A stretch of DNA of 64,000 nucleotides, from NCBI GenBank assembly GCA_016931615.1, contig JAFGEL010000062.1, positions 151,837 through 215,836 on the forward strand, written 5' to 3'. The translations under genes were made by a program, and so were the position numbers. Positions 3,566-9,644 of the stretch are shown piece after piece. Origin of the DNA: Desulfuromonadales bacterium. GTDB lineage: Bacteria > Desulfobacterota > Desulfuromonadia > Desulfuromonadales > Geopsychrobacteraceae. The notes below the pieces were generated by a model, which made no database searches, was not told where the DNA came from, and saw only the letters and a list, made by a program, of their open reading frames with translations. The first letter of the stretch is position 1; every line of letters starts with the position of its first letter.

Positions 3566-4354
3566 ATGAATTTTCCACCTATTGATCCGGTTATTTTTAC
3601 TATCGGGCCGCTGGCTGTGCGCTGGTACGGTTTGATGTATCTGCTTGGATTCGTCGGCAGCTATTTTATGATGTGTCACGTGTCGCGGTTGCGGCGTTGG
3701 TCGTTGGATAAGAATGCTGTTTCCGACCTGCTGTTCTATGGTGTCTTTGGCGTCGTGCTGGGTGGCCGGCTCGGATATACCCTGATCTACAACTTTGCCT
3801 ATTACAGTCGTCACCCGCTGGAAATTCTTTTTGTCTGGCAGGGGGGGATGAGTTTTCATGGGGGCCTGATCGGGGTTCTGGTAGCCATCCTGGTTTTTTG
3901 CCGGCGCCAGAAGTTCAGGTTGTTGATGGTTGCTGACCTGGTTGTCGCCGCGGTACCGATTGGGCTTGGGCTTGGACGGATCGGAAATTTCATTAATGCA
4001 GAACTCTGGGGTCGAGTCACGGATCTGCCCTGGGGAATTGTTTTTCCCGGTGCGGGGACACAGCCTCGTCATCCGAGTCAGCTTTACGAAGCCGGACTGG
4101 AAGGCCTTGTTCTTTTGTCGGTTATTTACTTTCTGCATCGGCGTGAAGTCCGGTCTGGTGTTCCGGCTTTCAGCTTTCTGATGCTCTATGGAGTGGTGCG
4201 GTTCCTGGTGGAGTTCCTGCGACAGCCGGACAGTCACCTCGGGTTTCTCTGGGGCGGGGCAACGATGGGACAGCTTCTCTCAGTGCCGATGATCATGATC
4301 GGTCTGAGTGGCCTGGTATTGGTGTTGAAGAGGCAGCGGCATGGAGCGGATTGA
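3566..4354 (+). CDS. lgt: Prolipoprotein diacylglyceryl transferase
   Basis: Integral inner-membrane enzyme that moves diacylglycerol from phosphatidylglycerol to the lipobox cysteine of prolipoproteins, the first step of lipoprotein maturation. The 262-residue protein has several membrane segments, the GGMSFHGGLIG motif with the essential histidine, the GRIGNFINAELWG signature and the PRHPSQLYEA motif. It serves the many lipoproteins made nearby, such as those at 9645, 11387 and 12139. Its last 14 bases overlap the next gene, which suggests coupled translation. Confidence 0.96.
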   Translation: MNFPPIDPVIFTIGPLAVRWYGLMYLLGFVGSYFMMCHVSRLRRWSLDKNAVSDLLFYGVFGVVLGGRLGYTLIYNFAYYSRHPLEILFVWQGGMSFHGGLIGVLVAILVFCRRQKFRLLMVADLVVAAVPIGLGLGRIGNFINAELWGRVTDLPWGIVFPGAGTQPRHPSQLYEAGLEGLVLLSVIYFLHRREVRSGVPAFSFLMLYGVVRFLVEFLRQPDSHLGFLWGGATMGQLLSVPMIMIGLSGLVLVLKRQRHGAD

Positions 4355-4964
4355 GGCTATAATTTTCGATTGCGATGGGGTCATGTTTGAGAGCCGTGAG
4401 GCAAACCTGGCTTATTATAACCGGATTCTTGAACAGTTTGCCTATCCGCGTGTGTCGGCGGCAGACGGGGAGCGTGCTCATCTTTGTCACACCGCCAGTT
4501 CGCCTGAGGTTTTGAAAGGCTTGATGCGTCTGGAAGATGTTGCGCCGGCTCTCGAGTTTGCTGCCCGCCTCGATTACCACGAATTTATTCCCCAGATGAT
4601 TCCTGAGCGCTTTCTGGAACAGGTTTTGGCTGATCTTCAGCAAAGATATCCCTTGGCTATTGCCACCAACAGGGGGCAGAGCATTCGGCCTATTCTTGAG
4701 CACTTTAATCTCGCTGATTATTTTTCGGTGATCGTTACCAGTCATGATGTAGCCAGGCCTAAACCCGCGCCCGACATGCTCTTGCTGGCGGCTGAGAAAC
4801 TGGGGGTTTCACCCCGTTCTTGTCTTTTTATCGGTGATTCCGAGTTGGATCGCCGTGCGGCCTTTGAGGCCTCCGTACAGTTCTCCGGCTACGGGGATAT
4901 GGTCACGAGTGAGCGAACTGTGGTCACTCATCTTGATCTGCTGGAATGGCTGGCCGAATATTGA
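4341..4964 (+). CDS. HAD-family hydrolase (phosphoglycolate phosphatase-like)
   Basis: A 207-residue phosphatase of the haloacid dehalogenase superfamily. Motif I is DCDGVMFES with the nucleophile and acid-base aspartates, motif II is the ATNRG segment, motif III the lysine of RPKPAPDM, and motif IV the FIGDSELD acid pair. A small helical cap lies between motifs I and II, as in phosphoglycolate phosphatase and beta-phosphoglucomutase. The substrate cannot be told from sequence. It overlaps the end of lgt by 14 bases. It converges on the minus-strand signalling operon; I see no clear terminator in the 55-base gap. Confidence 0.88.
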   Translation: MERIEAIIFDCDGVMFESREANLAYYNRILEQFAYPRVSAADGERAHLCHTASSPEVLKGLMRLEDVAPALEFAARLDYHEFIPQMIPERFLEQVLADLQQRYPLAIATNRGQSIRPILEHFNLADYFSVIVTSHDVARPKPAPDMLLLAAEKLGVSPRSCLFIGDSELDRRAAFEASVQFSGYGDMVTSERTVVTHLDLLEWLAEY

Positions 4965-5019
4965 ATTCGAATCCGATTAAAACTACAGCCTCTGAGTGTT
5001 GAGCCTGGAAAAAGGGACT

Positions 5020-5442
5020 TTAGTTCAGAAATTTTATCATCTGCAGAACGTTTGAATCTCCTTCGCGCAAATATTCCACCTCATCCATCAGTTTACAGAT
5101 CAGCTGAATCCCTCGGCCACCCTCATCACTGGTTTTTGCCATGAGTTTGGAATGCGCATCCATGTCGAATCCCTGCCCCTGATCATAAACCCGGATGATC
5201 AGATCCTGATCAGAGGCGGAGATCGATAATTTCACGTCCTTGTCGGGATCACACAGATTTGCGTGGCACATGGCATTGGCCAGGGCCTCTGTCAGCACCA
5301 GGTTGAGGTGATAGGCGAGCTCGCGGCGATTGCCCTGAAAGCCTTTGAGCGAGTACGCGAGACTTTCGCCTATTCTTCCGATCATTCCAAGATACTTGGT
5401 TTGATTCGGTACTTTGATGTCAACCTCAATGCGTCTGGACAT
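5020..5442 (-). CDS. RsbW-type anti-sigma factor / serine-protein kinase
   Basis: A single-domain GHKL (HATPase) protein of about 140 residues. The N box reads ALANAMCHAN, the G1 box DQGQGFD and the G2 box GGRGIQL, so ATP binding should be intact. In partner switches of the RsbW/SpoIIAB type this protein binds a sigma factor or other target and phosphorylates its STAS antagonist. It is the last gene of a minus-strand operon and lies just after the STAS gene, so the pair should interact. I prefer the ATG at 5442; a TTG at 5466 is in frame. No sigma factor gene is near, so the target is unknown. Confidence 0.88.
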   Translation of the reverse strand: MSRRIEVDIKVPNQTKYLGMIGRIGESLAYSLKGFQGNRRELAYHLNLVLTEALANAMCHANLCDPDKDVKLSISASDQDLIIRVYDQGQGFDMDAHSKLMAKTSDEGGRGIQLICKLMDEVEYLREGDSNVLQMIKFLN

Positions 5443-5471
5443 ATGCGCAAAATCCGATGGGGACAACTTCG

Positions 5472-5807
5472 TTAAAAACTGGCCTGAGCTTCATCCAGAG
5501 TGGTGAAAATTTCGAAAACCCGGTGGAGCCTGGTCAGTTCAAACATGGAACGGACCTGCGGTTGTAAACAGCACAATTTCAGGTTGCCCTCCCTGGCGCT
5601 GGCATTCTTGAAGCCCGAGACCAGAGCACCCAGACCTGATGAGTCGATAAATCTCACGGCACTCAGATCGACGATCAGGTTACATTTTCCGTCGTCAAAC
5701 AACTGCAGCATCTGTTCCTTGAGATCACCGCTGTTATGTGCGTCCATGCGCTCTTCCTGGACACTGATTTGAACGATATCACCCTGTTCTGAAATGTTTA
5801 ATTGCAT
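5472..5807 (-). CDS. STAS-domain anti-anti-sigma factor (RsbV/SpoIIAA type)
   Basis: A 111-residue single STAS domain. The IDSSGLGAL motif near residue 60 holds the serine that RsbW-type kinases phosphorylate and SpoIIE-type phosphatases free again. A strong ribosome binding site (AAGGAG) precedes the ATG at 5807. It sits between the phosphatase gene upstream and the kinase gene downstream, giving a complete switch in one operon. When unphosphorylated it should bind the kinase and release its target. Family assignment is firm; the output is not known. Confidence 0.93.
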   Translation of the reverse strand: MQLNISEQGDIVQISVQEERMDAHNSGDLKEQMLQLFDDGKCNLIVDLSAVRFIDSSGLGALVSGFKNASAREGNLKLCCLQPQVRSMFELTRLHRVFEIFTTLDEAQASF

Positions 5808-5897
5808 TCAAGTTCTCCTTCTAGGCTCAAATAATAAAATTTTCTGCTACTGGTGTTGGGCACTGTCCGTGAGTGACAGTACGTATGTCTAGATATT

Positions 5898-8800
5898 CTA
5901 GTTCAATACTTTCATAACCACTAACGTGATGTCATCGTTAAAGTGGCGCATACCGGTAAAAAATCTTACCTGGTTCATGATGCAGTCAATAATCTCCTGG
6001 GGATCCAGGTTGTCACATTCCTCAAGTAAATGACCGAGACGTTCCGTGCCGAAGAATTGATGATCATTGTTTTCAGCTTCTATAATACCATCCGTGTAAA
6101 GCAGCAGAAGGTCTCCGGCGGCAAGATTGGTTGTTTTCTGTTCAAATGAAATATTTTTTTTGACTCCGAAGATCAGTCCCTCGGCATCAAGCAGTTCCAG
6201 CTGTTTTTTCTTGTTCCTCCAGAGCAGCGGGTTGTTATGCCCGGCATTGCTGTATATAAGGCGATGGCTGTCCGGGTTATACTGGAGATAGAACATGGTG
6301 ACGAACAAATCGGAACGATCAAGATCCTTGAGAAAATAGCTGTTGAGTTCACTGAGCATGGCGGCAGGTTGTTGAATGCTTTGAATGCGGGCATGAATGA
6401 AGGTCCGCGCTTCGGCCATGATCAGCGCTGATCCGATATTGTGACCGGAAACATCCGCTATGACCACGTCGTAGGTTGTGCTGTTGCGCTGAATAAAGTC
6501 GTAATAGTCGCCTCCGACCTGATGGGCGGGCACACAGAGCCCAGCCAAAGCAACGCTTTCAAGCTGTGGCAGTGAAGAGGGCAGGAGACCCATCTGGATA
6601 TCTCTGGCGATCTCCATTTCACGCTCCTGGTCGCGTACGATCAGCAACTCCTGAAGTTGTTGCTGGTTGCGCCAGGCAATCGCGATTTGACGCGCAAGAT
6701 TTTCAAACAGGGCGACAAACTCCTGAGTAAAGATGCCTTTCACCGTTTTTGAAAAAGCCGAAAGAACACCGACCGGTTCCCCTTCAAGTACGATGGGTGT
6801 GTGGGCAAAGCAGGTAATCGCTTCACGTTTGATAATTTTTGCCGAAGCAGCTTTCTCAAGGTATTCCGTGTCATTGACGACCATCGTGACGTTGGATAAA
6901 AAGGCCTGGCCGATATAGGTGTCCATGTTGAGGTTACGCTCGGACTGGCCGAAATCCTCGGAGGACTGACCGACCAGACTCCTGACCATCAGCGTCATTG
7001 ATTCCGGTTCCAGAAAGCGGATAACGCAGAGGTCGAACTTGAACTGTTGAGAGAGCAATTCAAGAATGCGGTCCAGCACCTGTTGAAAATCCGCCCCGCT
7101 GGACACGATTTGCGCGGCGTCGTAAAGAACGCTCAGCTGTTCACGGCTGGCTGCATCGCTGATCGTCACCGACCCGAAAATATCAAAGACATCCTCCATC
7201 TCGCTACCTCGCGCTGCAAGGTAATTGTCAAGAATGATACGGGCCGGAGCGGCGCCGACGTAGCCCGCCAGGGTCCTTTCGGTAAAGTTTTTCAAGTGGG
7301 GGATTTCATGATCCGAAAGACTGCCACGTGAATCGATTTCCTGATTTTTCAGATATTCAGTGATGGAGGCCTGAGCCTGTTTGCCCCCGATGAATTTTGA
7401 CATCAATTCGACAAATTCCATCACTGTCGGGGCTTTACTGATGCGCTTCAGACTGGTCTGAGCGACGGTCTGTTCAGTGAAGATTTCAACGAATTTATCC
7501 GCCTGCTGCTTTTCTGATTCGGACTGCTCGCTGAAAAAAGACACAGTGAGAAACGCCGCGAGGTTGAACAGCAGGCTCCAGAAAAGCGAATGAGTATAAA
7601 TATCGAAGCCTCGCAACCCGAACAGTTCCAGGGGCTTCAATAGGCTGAAGTTGAAAAGTCCGTTCTGCAAAATGTCGGAACTGACCCACCCGGAGCGTAC
7701 GAAAGAAGGAATCAGCAGGGTGTAAACCCAGAGCAGAAACCCGGTGCCGATACCTGCGGACGCGGCTTTGCGGTTGGCCCTCTTCCAATAAAGTCCGCCG
7801 ATAATTGCCGGAGCGAACTGGGTCGCTGCGGTAAAGGAGATCAGTCCGATATTGACCAGGGCATAGGAGTCGCCGATGACCCGAAAATAAAAGTAGCCGA
7901 GAAAGACCGTACCAAGAATTCCGAGTCGCTTCAGATTGATGAGGATTCCGGAGAAATCCTGAATATGGACATTCATTTTAAGAATGATCGGCATGATCAG
8001 ATGGTTGAGAATCATTGTCGATATGGTCACTGAAGATACCATAACCATTCCGGCTGCGGCGGAGAGACCACCGACAAACACCAGCAGGGCCAGCCACGGG
8101 TGTCCAGAGGCGAGGGGCAGGGTGAGGACAAAATAATCAGCCTGGGCGGTGTCCCCTCCGTTGACGATCAAACCGCCCAGAGCGATCGGGATGACAAAGA
8201 TGTTCATCAGAAAAAGATAGGCGGGAAAACGCCACATCGCTTTTTTGATATGATTTTCGTCTGAGTTTTCCGTGATCATGATGTGGAACTGCCGCGGTAG
8301 AAACATTACCGCCATCATCGACAGGATGATCAGGGTAAACCATTTGGTGTAGGGTGTCTGTTCCGTGCCGAGCAGAAACAGGTCCCGGCGCTCGGGAAAC
8401 TGGGCGAAGAAACGCTGAAAAATATCGGAAAAACCGTCAAACATTCCATAAGTGACAAAAATTCCGACGGCGATAAAGGCGATCAGTTTGACCAGTGATT
8501 CAAACGCCACGGCCACCACCAGACCTTCATGGCGCTCTGAAGAATCGAGATGCCGGGCACCGAAAATCATGCCGAAGATTGCCAGGATGAAAGCCACGAT
8601 AAAAGCTGTATCGATGCCGGTCGGAAGCATCTGGGTATAGGCCTCAAGGCCCAACTCAGACATGACCAGGGGCATTGACAAAATATTCAGGGTGTGGGCG
8701 ATGGCTTTCAGTTGCAGGGCGATATAGGGCGTAATACCAAAGACCGCGAACAGCGTGACAATGGCGCCCAGAATGGCTGAACGATCGTAGCGGCTGGAAA

Positions 8801-9122
8801 GAAAGTCGGCAATACTGGTGATGTTCTGCTGTTTGCTGATCCGCACCATTTTTCTCAACAGAAACCACCAGGTAAAAGCGATCAGCGTCGGGCCCAGGTA
8901 AATCGGCAGGAATTCGAGTCCGCTTGTTGCCGCTCGGCCGACGCTGCCGTAAAAAGTCCAGCTGGTACAGTAAACCGCCAGAGACAGGCTGTAGACATGT
9001 GAACTTGACAACAGGCTCCTGCCTTTTTGGCGCCTGCGATCAGCATAGTATGCCACCAGAAAGAGGATGACAAAGTAGATGATCGAGATCAGTAAGACGG
9101 TTTTTGCTGGGATCATCGACAT
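5898..9122 (-). CDS. SLC5 transporter-STAC-GAF-SpoIIE phosphatase fusion protein
   Basis: A 1074-residue membrane protein with four parts. Residues about 1-540 are a sodium:solute symporter (SLC5/PutP-like) domain with many hydrophobic segments, as in the sensor kinase CbrA. About 555-650 resembles the STAC linker of transporter-coupled kinases (the ERTLAGYVGAAPAR stretch). About 660-825 is a GAF domain. From about 830 a PP2C/SpoIIE phosphatase domain has VGGDYYDF, ADVSGHNIGSAL, YTDGIIEAEN and FNDDITLV, so the metal-binding aspartates are present. Relatives with this transporter end usually carry a histidine kinase; here it is replaced by a phosphatase. Next come its expected STAS substrate and the RsbW-type kinase. 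It likely senses or carries a solute and dephosphorylates the STAS protein. The solute is unknown. Confidence 0.88.
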   Translation of the reverse strand: MSMIPAKTVLLISIIYFVILFLVAYYADRRRQKGRSLLSSSHVYSLSLAVYCTSWTFYGSVGRAATSGLEFLPIYLGPTLIAFTWWFLLRKMVRISKQQNITSIADFLSSRYDRSAILGAIVTLFAVFGITPYIALQLKAIAHTLNILSMPLVMSELGLEAYTQMLPTGIDTAFIVAFILAIFGMIFGARHLDSSERHEGLVVAVAFESLVKLIAFIAVGIFVTYGMFDGFSDIFQRFFAQFPERRDLFLLGTEQTPYTKWFTLIILSMMAVMFLPRQFHIMITENSDENHIKKAMWRFPAYLFLMNIFVIPIALGGLIVNGGDTAQADYFVLTLPLASGHPWLALLVFVGGLSAAAGMVMVSSVTISTMILNHLIMPIILKMNVHIQDFSGILINLKRLGILGTVFLGYFYFRVIGDSYALVNIGLISFTAATQFAPAIIGGLYWKRANRKAASAGIGTGFLLWVYTLLIPSFVRSGWVSSDILQNGLFNFSLLKPLELFGLRGFDIYTHSLFWSLLFNLAAFLTVSFFSEQSESEKQQADKFVEIFTEQTVAQTSLKRISKAPTVMEFVELMSKFIGGKQAQASITEYLKNQEIDSRGSLSDHEIPHLKNFTERTLAGYVGAAPARIILDNYLAARGSEMEDVFDIFGSVTISDAASREQLSVLYDAAQIVSSGADFQQVLDRILELLSQQFKFDLCVIRFLEPESMTLMVRSLVGQSSEDFGQSERNLNMDTYIGQAFLSNVTMVVNDTEYLEKAASAKIIKREAITCFAHTPIVLEGEPVGVLSAFSKTVKGIFTQEFVALFENLARQIAIAWRNQQQLQELLIVRDQEREMEIARDIQMGLLPSSLPQLESVALAGLCVPAHQVGGDYYDFIQRNSTTYDVVIADVSGHNIGSALIMAEARTFIHARIQSIQQPAAMLSELNSYFLKDLDRSDLFVTMFYLQYNPDSHRLIYSNAGHNNPLLWRNKKKQLELLDAEGLIFGVKKNISFEQKTTNLAAGDLLLLYTDGIIEAENNDHQFFGTERLGHLLEECDNLDPQEIIDCIMNQVRFFTGMRHFNDDITLVVMKVLN

Positions 9123-9144: not shown

Positions 9145-9396
9145 TCATGGGACGCGGCCGTCCTTGGGTTGCGTATTTGAGTCGGCACTGTCAGCCCCCA
9201 TATTATGAACGAACAGCCAGATAACGAATATCGACAACGGCCAGCCGATCAGAAAATAGAGAACCAGCTCGGGAATATTGAAAATCAGGTGATCAGTATT
9301 AAAGATGTGGATGAAAGGGAAATTGATCATGACCAGGCCGATAATCAGGCAAAGAATCCAGGCCTCTCGAATTGATTTCCCCTTGGTTTCTTTCAT
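9145..9396 (-). CDS. Small two-helix membrane protein next to the transporter-phosphatase
   Basis: A protein of about 83 residues with two hydrophobic segments joined by a short loop, and a hydrophilic C-terminal tail. I do not recognise the family with certainty. Small two-helix proteins often accompany SLC5-type symporters (for example the DUF4212 and DUF997 types), and this one lies 22 bases before the SLC5-phosphatase gene on the same strand, so it may be a subunit or chaperone of that protein. I start at the ATG at 9396, preceded by a GGGG stretch; a TTG at 9402 is in frame. Confidence 0.72.
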   Translation of the reverse strand: MKETKGKSIREAWILCLIIGLVMINFPFIHIFNTDHLIFNIPELVLYFLIGWPLSIFVIWLFVHNMGADSADSNTQPKDGRVP

Positions 9397-9644
9397 TGCC
9401 AAACCCCGTTCTCATGGTGGATTTATGAAAGACGTTTCAGCCGGTTGTAAAACGCTCGTACCAATTGACAGACTAGCTGTCTCCGGGTGGAAATACAATA
9501 AAAATTATAAAATTCACATAGTAGAAATTTAGCAGGAATTTCAGGTCTGTAAAGTTATACTTAAGAGCCTTTATTGCTTTGACGGCGGCAAAATGGGTAT
9601 GCTAGGTATCAGCAGTCAGTGAATTCCTTTTTGAGAACCGGGCG
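9397..9644. promoter_or_regulatory. Divergent intergenic region between the signalling operon and the TPR/peptide importer operon
   Basis: Both operons read away from this 248-base gap, so promoters for both must lie here or inside gene starts. A TTGACA at 9465-9470 and an AT-rich block at 9491-9530 are suggestive, but no -35/-10 pair with a spacing near 17 is found on the plus strand. I name no exact promoter. Confidence 0.45.

Follow-up and report, generated by a model that had tools for sequence, protein, structure and literature searches.

A four-gene operon in a 64,000-nucleotide stretch of a Desulfuromonadales bacterium genome (contig JAFGEL010000062.1, hereafter the window) probably encodes a membrane transceptor wired to a partner switch of the RsbV/RsbW type, in which a ligand-driven PP2C phosphatase would reset a STAS protein and free the target of the RsbW kinase. 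The genes share the minus strand, with short gaps or overlaps, and comprise a CbrX-like small membrane protein of 85 aa with two predicted transmembrane helices (9145..9402), a sensor phosphatase of 1074 aa (5898..9122), a STAS protein of the RsbV/SpoIIAA type (111 aa, 5472..5807) and an RsbW-type serine kinase (140 aa, 5020..5442). The sensor architecture, SLC5 followed by a STAC-like bundle, GAF and SpoIIE/PP2C, was derived from the open reading frame, Pfam, an alignment with PDB chain 10ed_A, an AF2 model and Foldseek. The original prediction, made from the letters of this DNA, had placed the last three genes correctly but overlooked the upstream one, and had started the RsbW gene at a TTG codon at 5466 that relatives do not have in common; we replaced it with the ATG at 5442, which gives 140 aa as in relatives. 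The flanking genes, encoding a TPR protein, a peptide ABC transporter, Lgt and a HAD phosphatase, are all divergent or convergent, and no target gene adjoins the operon. A candidate sigma-54 promoter, which scores 9/12 and precedes the operon in the window, was rejected, as neither its position nor its sequence is kept in relatives.

The SLC5 domain, of LeuT fold, occupies residues 1-540 (7503..9122, minus strand). Pfam SSF gave no match for the SLC5-STAC part of the protein, but residues 8-638 align with 10ed_A, a solved 606-aa chain labelled “histidine kinase” (E 3.7e-72), and Foldseek with the sensor model returned SGLT, NIS and SiaT among its matches, so that the SLC5 transporter assigned to the long gene stands. 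We read 10ed_A as the SLC5-STAC part of CbrA, since the pocket residues that the CbrA structure paper names are present in its sequence. Lys212 of the sensor takes the position of CbrA K196, which fills the Na2 site, and is kept in all 51 sequences compared (42/42 PP2C-type and 9/9 histidine kinase-type relatives). At the eight pocket sites mapped from CbrA, sensors linked to the partner genes are 95-96% identical to the window copy, even where SLC5 identity falls to 56-67%, against 67% in unlinked paralogues. Homologues of the 85-aa protein immediately precede the sensor gene in both PP2C-type and histidine kinase-type relatives, mostly with an overlap of a few bases, and share the pattern N[YF]P..F..GIP.L.LY...GW. 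This protein had no match in Pfam, NCBIfam or PDB, whether as a single sequence or as a profile, and no sequence match to known CbrX could be made; it equals Pseudomonas CbrX, a small subunit that cryo-EM has revealed together with CbrA, in place and two-helix topology (PMC13022988).

Behind the transporter part the AF2 model places four helices (residues 567-636), forming a STAC-like bundle at residues ~563-640 (7203..7436, minus strand). When predicted alone, the bundle had as its top structural neighbour Af1502, the STAC prototype of known structure, with 69/69 residues at an rmsd of 2.9 and a Z of 6.0, a modest score for a helical bundle. The 10ed_A alignment continues into the CbrA STAC at 21% identity, and the junction of helices 1 and 2 carries IGGKQA where STAC has the motif LGPx(x)A (PMC4834066). 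A sequence profile of the bundle searched against PDB found no STAC chain, and for the reported CbrA STAC contact residues N531 and G579 the letters at those numbers disagree in our mapping, so nothing was drawn from them. The STAC-like assignment is thus favoured, though not decisively, by its position, its helices and a structural match of modest score.

The GAF domain (residues 677-817, 6672..7094, minus strand; Pfam E 2.9e-15) matches PDB 2qyb (E 3.6e-30), a structure that Foldseek also found. A long helix at residues 800-846 (6585..6725, minus strand; AF2 model) runs from GAF to phosphatase and is a candidate coiled-coil linker, which may work in a manner similar to RsbU linkers (PMC12143880). 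The SpoIIE/PP2C phosphatase domain then spans residues 857-1072 (5907..6554, minus strand; Pfam SpoIIE 882-1072, E 2e-51), with the motifs GGDYYD, DVSGH, AGH, TDG and DD all intact. Their residues do not vary in 42 relatives; the metal-binding motifs GGDYYD, DVSGH, TDG and DD are kept in 42/42, apart from one Y874F, and Foldseek matched this domain to the RssB, Rv1364c, SiaA and SpoIIE phosphatases. In Pfam, the C-terminus of the sensor is SpoIIE/PP2C and the HisKA plus HATPase_c output of a histidine kinase is not present. Profiles, the PDB match, folds and motifs agree that a GAF domain and a complete SpoIIE phosphatase share one protein with SLC5.

This architecture also allows the GAF domain to be the main sensor. 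In CbrA, the membrane domains become dispensable when the protein is over-produced, so that SLC5 is not strictly needed for signalling, and the cytosolic PAS domain is essential (PMC6591292). By analogy GAF would bind a cytosolic metabolite, and SLC5 would anchor the protein in the membrane, transport on the side or have a mild modulating effect. GAF is indeed well conserved and always present in PP2C-form sensors, yet SLC5 and STAC are full length in essentially all sensor copies, and linked copies hardly vary in the pocket and at K212 while paralogues do, as expected under selection for ligand binding. We regard GAF as the true sensor as somewhat unlikely, and favour a ligand-binding transceptor.

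The two presumed partners of the phosphatase have intact motifs. The STAS protein (Pfam STAS, E 3.7e-23; NCBIfam ant_ant_sig) and the RsbW-type kinase (Pfam HATPase_c_2, E 6.2e-21; NCBIfam RsbW) both score under the curated equivalog cut-offs. Ser57 in FIDSSGLG is the candidate phospho-serine of the STAS protein, and D55, S56, S57 and G58 of DSSGLG are invariant in 16/16 sequences. The same holds for the ATP site of RsbW (N box E..N, DxGxG and GRG), where E52, N56, D87, G89, G91, G109, R110 and G111 are invariant in 16/16. Profiles and invariant motifs thus bear out a STAS protein with the phospho-serine motif and a complete RsbW-type kinase in the two genes following the sensor.

Most likely, the sensor is a transceptor of the CbrA kind in which the kinase output has given way to a phosphatase acting on a partner switch to reset it. 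The SLC5 receptor and its CbrX-like subunit would bind a small solute in the central pocket, probably in a proton-linked manner through Lys212, and the receptor state would pass through STAC, GAF and the long helical linker to the C-terminal PP2C, presumably by altering the phosphatase dimer. The phosphatase would then remove the phosphate from STAS Ser57, and unphosphorylated STAS would hold RsbW and free its target, a sigma factor or another protein probably encoded elsewhere; with the phosphatase off, RsbW would rephosphorylate STAS and recapture the target. The sequences themselves establish the domain makeup, catalytic and phospho-acceptor motifs that are intact, and conservation of both operon and pocket. 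Architecture, motifs and linkage with STAS and RsbW agree with the transporter-gated serine switch of the original prediction; gating by transport or binding, its direction and STAS as the substrate we infer.

As that prediction had noted, no sigma factor lies near the operon. The genome has six Sigma70_r2 matches, none of them nearby, with no obvious SigB/SigF-type factor among them; the RpoS-like and FliA-like ones are two plausible distant sigma factors, RpoS being only a candidate for the final target. This lack of adjacency and of a SigB/SigF type would suit a reversed signal, in which STAS and RsbW regulate the transporter, or a STAS protein driving some other effector, for example an enzyme of c-di-GMP. 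In P. aeruginosa, HsbA has both FlgM and a diguanylate cyclase as binding partners (PMC6482189), and the higher mean column identity of STAS (79%, against 62% for RsbW) would suit several partners. Against this, with a complete PP2C output it is simplest to assume a forward signal, and family f17 retains STAS-RsbW after losing the sensor and the CbrX-like gene, so the pair are not solely transporter regulators and another phosphatase can serve them. Either alternative to forward signalling onto a sigma factor seems to us improbable.

Across genomes, the transceptor and its putative switch mostly stay together. The sensor phosphatase occurs in 119/136 genomes of the order, STAS in 132/136 and RsbW in 131/136, and in 111 of the 114 order genomes with an intact sensor C-terminus STAS follows 28-324 bp downstream on the same strand. 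This search of other genomes for the architecture and its partners, proposed with the original prediction, yielded very strong conserved linkage; the proposed domains did not prove to be misassigned, nor the partner genes to be never linked. The operon is not accidental and is retained across almost the whole order. That it merely reflects inherited gene order is extremely improbable: the flanking TPR protein, Lgt and HAD phosphatase genes are likewise conserved within the order, which would suit that reading, but in other orders of class Desulfuromonadia the four-gene operon is intact in 8/8 genomes read out, among flanking genes that differ between genomes, and its co-directional, closely spaced or overlapping genes include phosphatase, STAS and kinase, the known minimal partner-switch set. 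The G. sulfurreducens GAF structure 2qyb shares 82% identity across 158 residues with the GAF domain in one linked member (L047), suggesting that the system is present in this genetically tractable species. Unlinked sensor paralogues exist as well, and a bolder, rather doubtful proposal would be a class-wide nutrient transceptor setting sigma factor availability, most plausibly of RpoS, through partner switching, where several transceptor phosphatases with differing pockets would converge on one STAS-RsbW pair and sum nutrient signals.

Among known systems, the closest input is that of Pseudomonas CbrXA, an SLC5-STAC-PAS-HisKA-HATPase histidine kinase with the CbrX subunit. Both have the SLC5 fold, a STAC (STAC-like here) domain after the last transmembrane helix, the Na2-site lysine and a gene for a two-helix protein just upstream, whereas the sensor described here has a PP2C output and GAF in place of PAS, only 33% SLC5 identity with CbrA, and Thr53, Thr56 and Ser268 in the pocket where CbrA has Ser53, Ala56 and Phe248. 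CrbS/MxtR and RpuS, SLC5-STAC hybrid kinases for acetate and pyruvate, have the same input, but their output is a histidine kinase plus receiver and a LuxR-type regulator; the pocket of an RpuS-type protein on pNGR234b (L140; Y,T,W,S,F,Y,A,F) is nearer to the one here than that of CbrA. That SLC5-STAC modules normally drive histidine kinases is right, though not exclusively so, given that an EAL domain is annotated in one SLC5-STAC protein (L142), and given the Actinobacterial SSS proteins with GAF, PP2C_SIG and HATPase_c reported in a SMART survey (PMC7918813). The latter belong to another phylum and are reported to carry the kinase in the same protein, with STAC, operon and function undescribed (PMC7918813); beyond that survey remark, our literature search, largely without subscription papers, found no description of an SLC5-STAC-PP2C protein.

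On the output side, Bacillus RsbU/RsbP-RsbV-RsbW and SpoIIE-SpoIIAA-SpoIIAB have the same set of PP2C, STAS phospho-acceptor and GHKL serine kinase, which the present system encodes in a single operon, but our system has a transporter-like membrane protein as its sensor and lacks an adjacent sigma gene, and its STAS and RsbW score below equivalog level. The Gram-negative switches CrsR-CrsA of Shewanella and HsbR-HsbA of P. aeruginosa likewise join PP2C, kinase and STAS and control RpoS (PMC6482189), with PP2C and kinase fused behind a receiver, while the present operon encodes them as two proteins, behind a transceptor. For CbrA it is still an open question how a transporter-like receptor couples to its cytosolic output, and since the same receptor apparently drives a different enzyme here, the common element must be the coupling itself. 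In sediment bacteria that reduce metals, partner switching would also gain a nutrient as a defined input, and cells could sense a nutrient and reset a switch of gene control with no need of a classical two-component relay.

The window comes from a Desulfuromonadales MAG whose nearest relatives are Desulfuromusa-like genomes, and its minus strand holds an operon of four genes encoding, in order, a small two-helix protein of 85 aa (cbrX-like gene, 9145-9402), a sensor phosphatase of 1074 aa (5898-9122), a STAS protein of 111 aa (5472-5807) and an RsbW-type kinase (5020-5442). The sensor, STAS and RsbW genes named in the original prediction are all there, but the first gene of the operon had been overlooked, and the kinase start, placed at TTG 5466, was corrected to ATG 5442 because this yields the length of its relatives, 140 aa. 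Many relatives carry one further gene, APH/AAA_33 kinase-like, between the cbrX-like gene and a TPR gene (e.g., 4209-5762 of locus L018); the window lacks it.

Pfam places the GAF domain of the sensor at residues 677-817 and SpoIIE at 882-1072, while the Pfam SSF model gave no match to the protein. Residues 8-638, spanning the SLC5 and STAC regions, form one continuous alignment to 10ed_A (E 3.7e-72), which we read as CbrA, since it has the pocket residues reported for that protein (Y51, S53, W55, A56, F71, Y75, K196, F248, and F406; PMC13022988) with the same letters and numbers. In the AF2 model (pLDDT 77) the transporter helices are followed by four helices at 567-636, then by a GAF fold, a helix of 47 residues at 800-846 and finally a PP2C fold, and Foldseek matches the model to SGLT/NIS/SiaT, to the GAF structure 2qyb and to the phosphatases of RssB, Rv1364c, SiaA, and SpoIIE. 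When the STAC segment was modelled alone, its top structural neighbour was Af1502, the STAC prototype, with Z 6.0 and rmsd 2.9 over 69/69 residues, a modest score for a helical bundle; the unrelated rows that follow score 4.7 and lower. Where its helices 1 and 2 meet, the segment also carries the glycine motif IGGKQA, in the position of LGPx(x)A in STAC proteins (PMC4834066); our confidence in assigning it to STAC is good, though not final.

The motifs on which such a switch would depend are intact. The PP2C metal-site motifs are invariant among 42 PP2C-type relatives, and K212, corresponding to CbrA K196, the occupant of the Na2 site, is invariant in these 42 and in nine kinase-type relatives. 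DSSGLG of STAS and the N box, DxGxG and GRG of RsbW are invariant in 16/16 sequences each. At one locus of a complete genome (L117, 3807-7019; G105) the sensor gene lies in two frames, the search having read through one TAG.

A scan of species genomes found full-length sensor relatives of 49-83% identity throughout Desulfuromonadales, with a STAS gene at 36 and an RsbW gene at 34 of the loci; both STAS-bearing loci without RsbW end directly past STAS. Among 136 genomes of the order, 119 hold the sensor, 131 RsbW and 132 STAS. The original prediction had called for seeking this architecture in other genomes, and linkage with STAS is borne out: in 111/114 genomes with an intact sensor C-terminus, STAS follows the sensor on the same strand after 28-324 bp, and in the remaining three the two genes are on separate contigs, at the ends of these or close to them insofar as the coordinates reveal it. 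In a sample of the phylum, full-length matches were confined to the same class (18/47 matched genomes); the other matches break off past GAF, at about position 840, and lie in frames of 820-1490 aa. In other orders of the class, the cbrX-like, sensor, STAS, and RsbW genes stand together in 8/8 genomes; because the operon is intact there amid flanking genes that vary by genome, shared gene order alone does not account for the linkage.

Two kinds of exception were found. One family of the order (f17) has STAS and RsbW in 13/14 genomes and the sensor in 0/14; at the five loci read (L110-L114) STAS-RsbW keep their usual position but the sensor and small upstream gene are missing, and other SpoIIE phosphatases are present in the four genomes searched. 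Conversely, seven sensor paralogues (L028, L033, L034, L035, L046, L050, and L056) all stand without STAS-RsbW, and all except L033 without the small upstream gene. One genome (G001) carries three full-length sensor phosphatases and a single STAS and RsbW of the operon's type, which suggests, but does not show, that several inputs may converge on one switch.

At eight pocket sites derived from CbrA, linked copies are 96% identical to the window, and still 95% where SLC5 identity is just 56-67%, whereas six unlinked paralogues reach 67% though their SLC5 identity (about 60%) is similar; the sequences are few and related, so this is an indication, not a significance test, that ligand binding is under selection. 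Histidine is not a safe guess for the ligand, because the window has T53, T56, and S268 where CbrA has S53, A56, and F248. By our reading of the sequence, TRAP transporter or CoA-transferase-like genes adjoin the paralogues L028 and L035, a weak hint at carboxylates as candidate ligands.

As for the output, the genome encodes two small RsbW-like kinases, two stand-alone STAS proteins and three SpoIIE proteins. Its second partner switch lies within a chemosensory cluster (L108, contig C29, 4633-14638) of STAS, CheA, chemoreceptor, CheW, CheB, CheR, receiver-SpoIIE, and an HATPase_c_2 protein. By sequence and context, the sigma factors are RpoD-like, RpoS-like (adjoining a LysM/NlpD-like gene), FliA-like (adjoining a MinD/FlhG-like gene) and three short ECF-like; RpoS is a candidate target by analogy with other proteobacteria, where it is held by CrsR and HsbR (PMC6482189).

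With very few exceptions, SLC5-STAC proteins are kinases (PMC4834066, PMC9100948). In an SLC5-STAC tree, a branch with support of 96/96 divides the PP2C types from the kinase and EAL types if CbrA, whose branch is very long, is disregarded; this is consistent with a single swap of the output domain. The GAF-PP2C helix of the sensor resembles linkers proposed to dimerise and activate phosphatases of this type (PMC12143880); such a linker-like helix would account for the interchange of the sensor between kinases and phosphatases. On plasmid pAZKH of Azoarcus sp. KH32C (L142, 2802-6192) the annotation of an SLC5-STAC protein names an EAL domain, and a hypothetical ORF of 64 aa lies immediately upstream; this gives the sensor module a third kind of output, c-di-GMP turnover.

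The GAF domain of a linked protein (L047, 6478-6951) shares 82% identity over 158 residues with 2qyb, a solved Geobacter sulfurreducens GAF whose source protein is labelled 'putative membrane protein'. 2qyb thus probably derives from the sensor phosphatase family, and from this identity G. sulfurreducens very probably has the transceptor-partner switch system. In Actinobacteria, SSS is reported together with GAF, PP2C_SIG, and HATPase_c (PMC7918813, a review); we found no description in the literature of the four-gene sensor phosphatase-STAS-RsbW operon. This operon combines a CbrA-like input, an RsbU-like output and RsbV/RsbW partners: the input half of its sensor resembles that of CbrA, its phosphatase output that of RsbU, and its STAS protein and kinase resemble RsbV and RsbW.
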